DNA of 35,156 bases, taken from the NCBI GenBank assembly GCA_027025615.1, contig JALVQM010000300.1, positions 1 to 35,156 of the forward strand. Direction: 5' to 3'. Position 1 is the stretch's first letter; each line of letters opens with the position of its first letter. Both the position numbers and the translations under genes were made by a program. The notes beneath the pieces were generated by a model that did not search any database, was not told the DNA's origin, and saw only the letters and a list, made by a program, of their open reading frames with translations. The DNA comes from Desulfobacteraceae bacterium. GTDB taxonomy: Bacteria; Desulfobacterota; Desulfobacteria; Desulfobacterales; Desulfosarcinaceae. Positions 20,199 through 26,040 of the stretch are shown here, piece by piece.

Positions 20199-20876
20199 TC
20201 AGGCATATCGCAAACATCCTTCCGCTAAAACCAGGTGACGATTGGCTGCCTTGCGAAAAAATGCATCCCCGCCGGAAGTAAAGACCAGCGGAACCGACTT
20301 TAAAATAAATTCTTCCAGAACCCGGCGAACGACCTGAAAACGCCTGTCAGTAACCAGATCGCCGGGTCTGTCTATCAAAATTATTTCAGGATTTTTGGAC
20401 AACTCCCGCACAATGACCGCCAATTGAATATCAACCTGGTCCAGTTCCGAAGGCCTAAGTTCAATTTTCCGCTCAAGGTCAAGCAGTTGACATAGCACTT
20501 TTTCTTCCGCCCCAAGTCCAATAGAAAAAGAGTTTCCGAAATACCATTTCATTAAAAGCAGATTTTCCCTTATGCTCAGGTTGCTGATCAGGGACGCATC
20601 TTGAGCGATATAACTGATACGCCTTTTGCACTCAAGCAAATCTCGATAATCATCTGTACGGTGCTCGTGGCCCAGGAAAAAATACCTGCCGGCGTCCGGC
20701 TTTTCCAAAGTAGCCAGAGCCCGCAGCAAAAGCAAACCGTCAGCCGGATCACTTGATTCCAGGTATACAACTTCTCCCGGGCCAATGGTCAATGAACACT
20801 TTTTGAGGCCATGGCCCGCTTTTTCAGAGGCGATTACATAATCTTCTATGGCCACTTTCGAAGCATTACGATTCAT
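20199..20876 (-). CDS. MlaF-like ABC ATP-binding protein homologue with degenerate catalytic motifs
   Basis: ABC-ATPase framework (ISYIAQDASLISNLSIRENLLL, NPEIILIDRPGDLV) in an operon with MlaE- and MlaD-like genes. Walker A, signature, Walker B Glu and H-loop are not conserved. Confidence 0.82.
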   Translation of the reverse strand: MNRNASKVAIEDYVIASEKAGHGLKKCSLTIGPGEVVYLESSDPADGLLLLRALATLEKPDAGRYFFLGHEHRTDDYRDLLECKRRISYIAQDASLISNLSIRENLLLMKWYFGNSFSIGLGAEEKVLCQLLDLERKIELRPSELDQVDIQLAVIVRELSKNPEIILIDRPGDLVTDRRFQVVRRVLEEFILKSVPLVFTSGGDAFFRKAANRHLVLAEGCLRYA

Positions 20877-23227: not shown

Positions 23228-23374
23228 TAACAGGCTGTCGAAAAACGTCATGAGCGCAGGTCAGACAAGGCAAAATCCGACGAAAAAGCGCAGTTTATTG
23301 GTAATAAATGAGCATTTTGAGGAGGATTTTAACGCCCTATGGCCAAGCGTAATAGTTTTTCAAGAGCCTGCTAA
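23228..23374. repeat. MITE-like palindromic intergenic repeat element
   Basis: Imperfect terminal inverted repeats AACAGGCTGTCGAAAAACGT / AGTTTTTCAAGAGCCTGCTAA. Nested symmetric arms AAAATCC/GGATTTT and TTTATT-GGT-AATAAA are centred at about 23301. Confidence 0.8.
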
Positions 23375-24825
23375 TATCGATAATGACCCGGTTTAAAAGG
23401 CCCCTCAACCGGTACCCCCAGGTACTGCGCCTGTTTGGGAGTTAAACGTTCCAATTTTACGCCCAATTTTGTAAGATGCAACCTGGCAACTTCTTCGTCC
23501 AGCTTTTTAGGCAGGGTGTAAACCTTTTTAGCGTATTCTTTTGTAGCAAGCTCAATTTGTGCCAAGCACTGGTTGGTAAAACTGTTGCTCATTACAAAAC
23601 TGGGGTGGCCCGTAGCACAACCCAGATTGACCAGTCTGCCTTCAGCCAGGACAATTACACTTCGTCCTGATTTCAATGTCCACTTGTCCACCTGGGGTTT
23701 TATGTTTTCCCGCCTGCATTCAGGTGTGGTTTCCAGGTAGCGCATTTCTATTTCACTGTCAAAATGACCTATGTTGCAAATTATAGCCTCGTCTTTCATC
23801 TGCTCCATGTGACTGCCGGTTATGACGTCACAACAGCCAGTGGCCGTAACGAAAATATCGCCGACAGGAGCAGCTTCATCCATGGTAACCACTTGAAAGC
23901 CTTCCATCGCCGCCTGAAGGGCACAAATAGGATCAATCTCAGTGATCAATACCCGGGCTCCATATCCCCGCATTGACTGGGCGCAACCTTTGCCCACATC
24001 ACCGTAGCCGCAAACCACGACCACTTTGCCGGCCACCATCACGTCTGTGGCCCTCTTGATGCCATCGGCCAGAGACTCCCGGCACCCATAAAGATTATCA
24101 AACTTGGACTTGGTCACCGAATCGTTTACATTGAAAGCCGGAAACAAAAGCTGACCACTTTTTTCCAGTTGATACAAGCGATGAACTCCGGTCGTTGTTT
24201 CCTCAGAAACCCCGCGTATTTTTTCAGCTATACTTGTCCAGAACCCCTTGTTGCGCTGGTGGGACAGCCGCAGCCTTGCAATCAGACACCGCATGTCCTC
24301 ACTATCGTATTCAGCATCCAAAAGGGCGGGGTTTTTTTCCACCGCCACACCCTGATGCACATAAAGGGTAGCATCACCACCGTCGTCTACAATAAGATCA
24401 GGGCCGCCGCCATCGGGCCAGATCAAGGCCTGTTCGGTACACCACCAGTATTCTGCAAGGGTTTCGCCCTTCCAGGCAAAAACAGCTGCCGAGCCTTTCT
24501 TGGCTATGGCGGCGGCGGCATGATCCTGGGTGGAAAAAATGTTGCAGGATGCCCAGCGTATATCAGCGCCCAGTTCCCTGAGAGTATCGATGAGCATTGC
24601 GGTTTGAATCGTCATGTGCAGGCTGCCTGTTACCCGCATTCCTTTGAGTGGCTTCCGGGGTCCATATTTTTCCCGCACAGCCATCAAACCGGGCATTTCG
24701 TTCTCGGCCAGTTGCATTTCCTTCAAACCCAGTTCAGCCAGGGAAATATCGGCTACCTTATGGGGCAGCTTTGGATCGTATCCCGGCACCTCTGCTAGAG
24801 GTTTGATATTGTAAACCGCTTTCAT
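23371..24825 (-). CDS. ahcY: Adenosylhomocysteinase
   Basis: [91 protein letters not shown]-terminal [10 protein letters not shown]. Confidence 0.98.
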
Positions 24826-24840
24826 ATGGTTTGCCTCCTT

Positions 24841-26010
24841 TTAAAGACCGGCTTTTTCACGAATCACATCTGCCATATTCGTGTTTTCCCAAGTAAATTC
24901 GGCCTCGCTCCGACCGAAGTGTCCATAAGCCGATGTCTGCCTGTAAATCGGACGCAGCAGATCAAGGTATTCAATAATAGCAGCCGGACGCAGATCCCAA
25001 ACTTCGCGCACTATCTCTTCCACCCTGGCTTTGGGCACATTTCCGGTCCACATCAAATCGACCATCACTGAAACAGGTTCGGCTACCCCTATGGCATAAG
25101 CAAGTTGTACTTCACACTTTTTTGCACAACCGGCGGCTACTATATTTTTGGCGATGTGTCGGGCCATGTACGAAGCGCTGCGGTCTACCTTGGAAGGATC
25201 CTTGCCCGAAAAACAACCCCCTCCATGGCTTCCCTGGCCCCCATAAGTGTCTACGATGATCTTGCGACCGGTCACGCCACAGTCCCCCATGGGACCTCCA
25301 ACGACAAAACGCCCGGTGGGATTGATAAAATATCGCGTATCACCGTCAATCATCTCGGATGGAATGACTTTCTTAATAACTTCCTCTATAACCGCCTCAC
25401 GCAGTTCTTCATATGTCACATCCGGTTTGTGTTGGCTTGAAACGACGATTGTATCAACTCGTTTGGGCACCCCGGCTTCATATTCTATGGTAACCTGGCT
25501 TTTGCCGTCAGGCCTTAAAAAATCCAGCGCACCATTTTTTCTTACTTTAGCCAACCGGCGGGTAAGCTTGTGAGCATACATTATCGGCATGGGCATCAGC
25601 TCAGGTGTTTCATTGGTGGCAAATCCGAACATAAGCCCCTGATCTCCGGCACCCTGGTCCTTGAACAGCCCCTGACCTTGGTTTACACCCTGGGCTATAT
25701 CCGGAGACTGGTGATCAATACTGGTTATCACCGAGCAAGTACGCCAGTCGAAACCCATCTGGGATGAGGAATAACCAATTTCGCGTATTGTACTGCGGAC
25801 TATTTCGGGCATATCTACGTAACACTCGGTTGTAATTTCACCGGCAATAAAAGCCAGACCTGTAGTTACCAAGGTTTCACAAGCGACACGGCAATTGGCA
25901 TCCTTGGCGATGATTGCGTCCAGGATTGAATCTGATATGGCATCGGCAACCTTGTCAGGATGTCCCTCGGTTACAGATTCAGAAGTAAATAAAAATTTTT
26001 CGTCAGCCAT
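24841..26010 (-). CDS. metK: S-adenosylmethionine synthetase
   Basis: [68 protein letters not shown]. Confidence 0.98.
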
Positions 26011-26040
26011 GGTGTGCATCTCCTATAATTGATTTTCGAA

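Follow-up and report, generated by a model that had tools for sequence, protein, structure and literature searches.

The direction and energy source of lipid transport by Mla and MCE systems are debated. In the Escherichia coli transporter MlaFEDB, residues R52, L96, Y108, E112 and R157 of the ATPase MlaF contact the coupling helix of the permease MlaE (PMC7784689), and the MlaF substitution K47R abolishes ATPase activity together with function in complementation (PMC5016091); ordinary Mla therefore needs ATP, and an operon of this type with a dead NBD must work differently. ATP-free MCE systems do exist, with PqiA and LetA having no ATPase domain (PMC12436622), and SbmA/BacA (SLiPT) is an ABC-type membrane domain that operates free of ATP, driven by the proton gradient (PMC13316013). 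These systems are precedents for both halves of the proposal made below. A literature search, with most subscription journals outside its reach, returned no account of a Mla or MCE system whose NBD is dead.

Encoded in the window (the whole stretch of DNA analysed, 35,156 nucleotides) is an operon of three genes in the order MlaE–psiF–MlaD, in which the second gene, named psiF here, specifies an NBD of the ABC type; its operon partners are referred to as psi-MlaE and psi-MlaD (Table 1). On balance, MlaE–psiF–MlaD is probably a paralogous transporter of the Mla/MCE type in which psiF is a pseudo-ATPase with a structural or gating role in an ATP-independent lipid conduit. The source genome carries dsrA, scoring over the curated cut-off, and is therefore of the sulfate-reducing type; its assembly is fragmented (509 contigs, 88% complete, 5.9% contamination).

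Table 1 Positions of the psi operon, of segments within psiF and of nearby genes in the window
Feature	Positions	Strand	Remarks
psi-MlaE, diverged MlaE-type permease, 258 aa	20873..21649	(-)	First gene of the operon; Pfam MlaE 1.3e-47
psiF, putative pseudo-ATPase, ABC NBD of 225 aa, all catalytic motifs lost	20199..20876	(-)	Start overlaps MlaE stop
psi-MlaD, N-terminal TM helix, one MCE domain, ~200 aa C-terminal helix	19108..20148	(-)	Pfam MlaD 6.7e-14
Former Walker A of psiF, residues 41–48, SSDPADGL (canonical GxSGxGKS/T)	20733..20756	(-)	Alignment; AlphaFold model
Retained MlaE-facing segment of psiF, residues 87–115, ISYIAQDASLISNLSIRENLLLMKWYFGN	20532..20618	(-)	Least variable part of psiF; entropy; permutation test; contacts from PMC7784689
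Former signature of psiF, residues 146–150, DQVDI within ELDQVDIQLA (canonical LSGGMKKR)	20427..20441	(-)	Alignment
Former Walker B of psiF, residues 169–172, DRPG (family consensus [E/D]RPE)	20361..20372	(-)	Alignment
Secreted protein, 292 aa	21850..22728	(+)	Matches no Pfam family; oriented divergently to the operon
ahcY and/or metK (S-adenosyl cycle)	23371..26019	(-)	A few kb from the psi operon

The psi operon and the fold of psiF

The coordinates, strand and motif strings given for the psiF reading frame in the earlier note, which was made from the DNA letters alone, are all correct. That note also took the genes to be translationally coupled, which fits the junction of psi-MlaE and psiF, where stop and start overlap as ATGA (20873–20876), and does not fit that of psiF and psi-MlaD, which are separated by 50 nt.

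By sequence, psiF is an ABC NBD, matched by the ABC_tran profile (PF00005) at 7.8e-8, above the Pfam cut-off. An AlphaFold2 model built on an alignment of 57 sequences adopts the ABC NBD fold (pLDDT 94, pTM 0.90), and a Foldseek search with this model retrieved FtsE, YbbA, MacB and MlaF (TM ~0.70–0.84, E down to 1e-17). The polypeptide stops at the last NBD strand, so that the C-terminal extension with which MlaF reaches MlaB and the opposite MlaF is absent, and no MlaB-like reading frame was found among the genes adjoining the operon. In canonical NBDs the helix following the first P-loop strand begins near the GK pair. As the equivalent helix begins at residue 44 in the model of psiF, the anion-binding loop appears, at the level of secondary structure, to have been replaced by an early helix turn.

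Loss of the catalytic motifs

Ten key residues were scored in 57 aligned psiF proteins and in 27 canonical MlaF proteins from the same genome set. Alignment of psiF to MlaF is gap-free across the motif region, and residue numbers are those of E. coli MlaF (K47, S146, E170), at which positions the psiF of the window has G47, D146 and R170. This alignment upholds the earlier reading that Walker A, the signature, the catalytic glutamate and the H-loop histidine are lost. Both the Walker A lysine and the catalytic glutamate are missing from all 57 proteins, the former replaced mostly by alanine (41) or glycine (8) and the latter by arginine (42) or glutamine (7), and P-loop G6 has become aspartate in 42/57. 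The signature is gone, its second and third positions being mostly N, R, S or D and P, D or S, respectively (LDQVD in the window). The D-loop aspartate is left in 4/57 and the H-loop histidine in 6/57; an aspartate or glutamate is left at Walker B in 49/57. Each psiF keeps between zero and three of the ten key residues, with none kept in 26 of the 57, against ten of ten in 27/27 canonical MlaF. The motif loss is far beyond chance.

Contrary to the earlier view that only the Q-loop remains, glutamine occurs at this position in 3/57 psiF, and Q92 of the window is a local survivor; a conserved Q-loop as a remnant of function is thereby ruled out. Also rejected was a covarying salt bridge between the P-loop aspartate and the Walker B arginine: the two are paired in 30/57 proteins, and the aspartate is found with Q, G, N and other residues as well.

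Selection on psiF and its operon partners

Pairwise dN/dS is 0.08–0.38 for psiF, 0.06–0.27 for psi-MlaE and 0.07–0.35 for MlaD, with values from pairs of saturated dS less reliable; psiF is under purifying selection, and the constraint that the earlier note would have looked for is thus present. It changes faster than MlaE, and between the source genome and its nearest relative identity is 88% for canonical MlaF and 65% for psiF.

Compared with canonical MlaF, the loss of conservation averages +1.83 bits at the nucleotide positions and +0.63 bits elsewhere (0 of 20,000 permutations) and is smaller, at +0.20 bits, in residues 87–115 (permutation test, p = 0.012); because the permutations assume independent columns and take the rows as they stand, they indicate the direction of the shift and do not yield phylogenetically corrected p-values. 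Among the 40 least variable positions of psiF, two are nucleotide columns and 14 fall within residues 87–115, the corresponding figures for canonical MlaF being 18 and 7. This segment, from the Q-loop to the X-region, lies opposite the permease's coupling helix. At the positions of the MlaF contacts, psiF has R/K at 52 (54/57), L/M at 96 (55/57) and R at 157 (57/57); other contacts are altered, with E112 of the NBD changed to Y/F/W and E127 of MlaE to H/N. By sequence, constraint has left the nucleotide site, with the fold and the MlaE-facing surface of psiF kept.

The partner proteins

Belonging to the MlaE family (PF02405, 162.6 bits against a cut-off of 22.5), psi-MlaE still has its coupling-helix segment, ELEAIELNGIDP, as well as five invariant residues, R111, E119, E128, R147 and K204, of which R111, E128 and R147 are present in 48/48 proteins. 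In a tree, the 48 psi-MlaE form one branch separate from 28 canonical MlaE (SH-aLRT 100). Inside the order, the psi-MlaE tree largely tracks family groupings, and therefore fits vertical inheritance with losses.

An N-terminal TM helix and an MCE domain (PF02470, 6.7e-14) place psi-MlaD in the MCE/MlaD family. Its model has a low mean confidence (62), with the MCE domain confident; in Foldseek the best matches are Mce1 chains (1e-11), and the MlaD core is matched with a TMt of 0.84–0.88. The helical part differs in length between members mostly in steps of 7–14 residues and ends in a conserved NLPP...LR motif (in fuller form IRxNLPP...DAGLRP), which suggests that the C-terminal part is coiled or tubular, built as a tube of repeats whose end serves for docking.

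Distribution, neighbourhood and ancestry

A match to psiF is present in 33 of 60 related genomes, and all ~30 strong matches are without catalytic motifs. In a profile search of 192 sampled genomes of the class to which the source genome belongs, 55 matched at 1e-25 or better; one of these (G117) was discarded as an intact LolD-like protein. The family is thus found in about 54/192 genomes, all within one order. The earlier note had reckoned with homologues that keep intact Walker motifs; every psiF homologue examined lacks them. In the wider phylum, dead members are sparse and occur in the families f75 (five genomes), f117, f144 and f64, in a search whose threshold may exclude weaker ones. 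A more distant dead NBD beside MlaE (L159 in G512) scores just below the main family, and weaker members probably exist under the threshold applied. Searching genome contigs with the single psiF protein gave only four weak, unrelated ABC matches, and a plasmid search with psi-MlaE gave only MlaE of the canonical type, below 60% identity.

The arrangement MlaE–psiF–MlaD is found in every locus with enough flank read. From its distribution, the psiF family is old and appears to be vertically kept. No constant partner or ligand gene adjoins the operon; the flanks vary by lineage and hold a CHASE2-cyclase, a TPR lipoprotein, metK/ahcY or a secreted protein with no assigned family. Homologues of the secreted protein in the window (31–52% identity) occupy the same place in four other loci (L099, L100, L102 and L103). 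The proximity of ahcY and/or metK is seen across several distant genomes (L095, L099, L102, L103 and L105), and a CHASE2-adenylate/guanylate cyclase gene divergently adjoins the operon in others (L088, L101 and L104; three other families).

In all bootstrap trees (100%), psiF forms a single group, lying nearer LolD, MacB and FtsE types than MlaF, and its best profiles are FtsE-like. A clade uniting psiF with MlaF is not rejected (AU test, p = 0.06); the branches are long, and placement relative to the MlaF clade is therefore unreliable. The description of psiF as a Mla-like NBD, as first proposed, stands insofar as the gene is encoded with MlaE and an MCE protein; descent from MlaF does not follow from the profiles and trees. 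We accordingly regard psiF as MlaF-like in position and docking, its descent from MlaF being unproven.

Canonical Mla systems in the same genomes

Most genomes with psiF also carry one to five canonical MlaE (PF02405 E < 1e-63), and the MlaF beside these is intact wherever the adjacent locus was read. A second MlaF elsewhere that could pair with this MlaE had been envisaged in the earlier note; the source genome has two intact MlaF, each with its own adjacent canonical MlaE. Seven genomes (G074, G165, G170, G175, G188, G204 and G348) have psi-MlaE and no canonical MlaE, and no protein in them reaches a true-MlaF score (controls E < 1e-93; best matches 1e-59 to 1e-53 or none), at a completeness of 81 to 97%, which leaves some doubt for any one genome and less for all seven. 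Of these, G165 is a single contig, in which the best non-MlaF match is MalK-like. Pairing with an intact MlaF is therefore not general among psiF proteins, and as a general rule it is unlikely.

The only MCE domain found in G074, G170, G175, G188 and G348 is that of one MlaD, and the psi operon can therefore be the only Mla/MCE system. Proteins of the MlaC family, which has other roles too, are present in five of the seven genomes. In G170 and G348, in which the psi operon is the sole MCE system, no MlaC-family protein was found.

A proposed mechanism and its alternatives

The earlier proposal of a pseudo-ATPase, perhaps structural, in a system that transfers lipid passively or with energy from another source is supported by the relatives of psiF, of which all those examined are without the motifs, and by the constraint seen in dN/dS. 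On the strength of its sequence, psiF almost certainly does not hydrolyse ATP, though an unorthodox site might still bind some nucleotide. It is very likely to be docked on MlaE, and homology of MlaE and MlaD makes a lipid the likely substrate. As the parts that handle ATP are all lost and the protein has long been kept, the transporter probably moves lipids without an ATP motor of its own; we lean slightly towards an ATP-independent conduit over a purely regulatory or storage role. The MlaE dimer would rest its coupling helices on a pair of psiF subunits, which would provide a scaffold or gate and no motor. MlaD would assemble into a hexameric MCE ring that leads into an extended helical tube resembling that of Mce1, and lipid would pass between the inner membrane and this tube with no ATP spent. 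The drive may be the lipid's own gradient, or an ion gradient, a periplasmic partner or another source; the operon itself reveals no energy source.

Weighed against this ATP-independent conduit, a regulatory adaptor is the alternative with most to recommend it, although we consider it improbable. Here psiF would bind another small ligand or a protein and, as a sensor or lock in the cytoplasm, control whether MlaE is open or shut. The changes at the old site are consistent across the family (G6 to Asp in 42/57, Lys to Ala in 41/57, Glu to Arg in 42/57, and the motif [E/D]RPE[DN]F) and new near-invariant residues, E158 and K161, have appeared, so that the surface looks rebuilt rather than decayed; against a sensor of this kind stands the lack of a constant partner or ligand gene beside the operon. 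Less probable still is a heteromeric transporter, in which psiF would be the degenerate NBD half and ATP would be hydrolysed on the same MlaE dimer by an intact ATPase, MlaF or another, encoded elsewhere in the genome; mixed NBD pairs with one degenerate site are a known theme in ABC exporters (for example, PMC12038006). The two intact MlaF of the source genome could serve this purpose, but each adjoins its own canonical MlaE, and the seven genomes described above have the psi operon with neither canonical MlaE nor an ATPase of MlaF grade. In known mixed pairs, moreover, the degenerate half still binds nucleotide, whereas the Walker A, signature and D-loop of psiF are all gone, and no composite site could therefore form.

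That psiF is a cryptic ATPase, powering transport with ATP bound at an unorthodox site, is very doubtful. The kept fold and the acidic Walker B residue in 49/57 would allow it, but the glycine-rich loop, lysine, signature and catalytic base are absent, the histidine is missing, the aspartate gained at the P-loop would be expected to repel phosphate, and the predicted loop gives way to an earlier helix start. Practically no weight attaches to a decaying gene, whether a recent pseudogene or a sequencing or assembly error: the 509 contigs of the source assembly might raise the suspicion, but it is ruled out, since over 50 genomes, single-contig ones among them, carry uninterrupted frames that have lost the same motifs, dN/dS is well below 1 and the fold is confident.

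The conduit reading extends, with a slightly better than even chance of being right, to a phylum-level lineage of lipid transporters of ABC architecture that would be permanently ATP-independent, with the NBD dimer as scaffold or gate and a flux that runs passively or on some other gradient, and that would be the sole Mla/MCE system in some genomes. A natural, selected and full ABC architecture without a working ATPase would provide a direct test of ATP-free lipid movement by MlaE and MlaD, and equally of what an NBD does beyond hydrolysis. For members of the psiF family, a database annotation of the 'ATP-binding protein' type is incorrect.

Comparison with known systems

With MlaFEDB or MlaFED of E. 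coli, Pseudomonas and Acinetobacter, the psi system shares a permease of the MlaE family with the coupling-helix segment, the MCE protein MlaD, an NBD of ABC fold at the place of MlaF in the operon, and the contact positions R52, L96 and R157. It differs in that the NBD is dead in every member and shorter (225 against 269 aa), lacking the C-terminal extension of MlaF, in the lack of a MlaB gene, in the gene order E–F–D, in the long C-terminal helix of psi-MlaD and in a permease on its own deep branch. Mycobacterial Mce1 (YrbE–Mce) likewise has an MlaE-type permease and MCE proteins with long C-terminal helices, and is the best match to the psi-MlaD model, but comprises six different Mce proteins and, unlike the psi operon, runs on an intact ATPase. 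The NBDs of FtsE, LolD, MacB and YbbA are the closest solved folds and the best single-sequence matches to psiF; their catalytic motifs, however, are intact, and their permease partners are of the FtsX/MacB type, not MlaE. PqiABC and LetAB (YebST), like the system proposed here, conduct lipid through MCE proteins and have no functional ATPase (PMC12436622), but their inner-membrane proteins, PqiA and LetA, are not permeases of the ABC kind and no subunit there has an NBD fold. The psi transporter may be seen as the counterpart to SbmA, in which the NBD and the coupling helices were lost together; the psi system keeps both, with the NBD dead, and this joint retention argues that the NBD still has a mechanical role.
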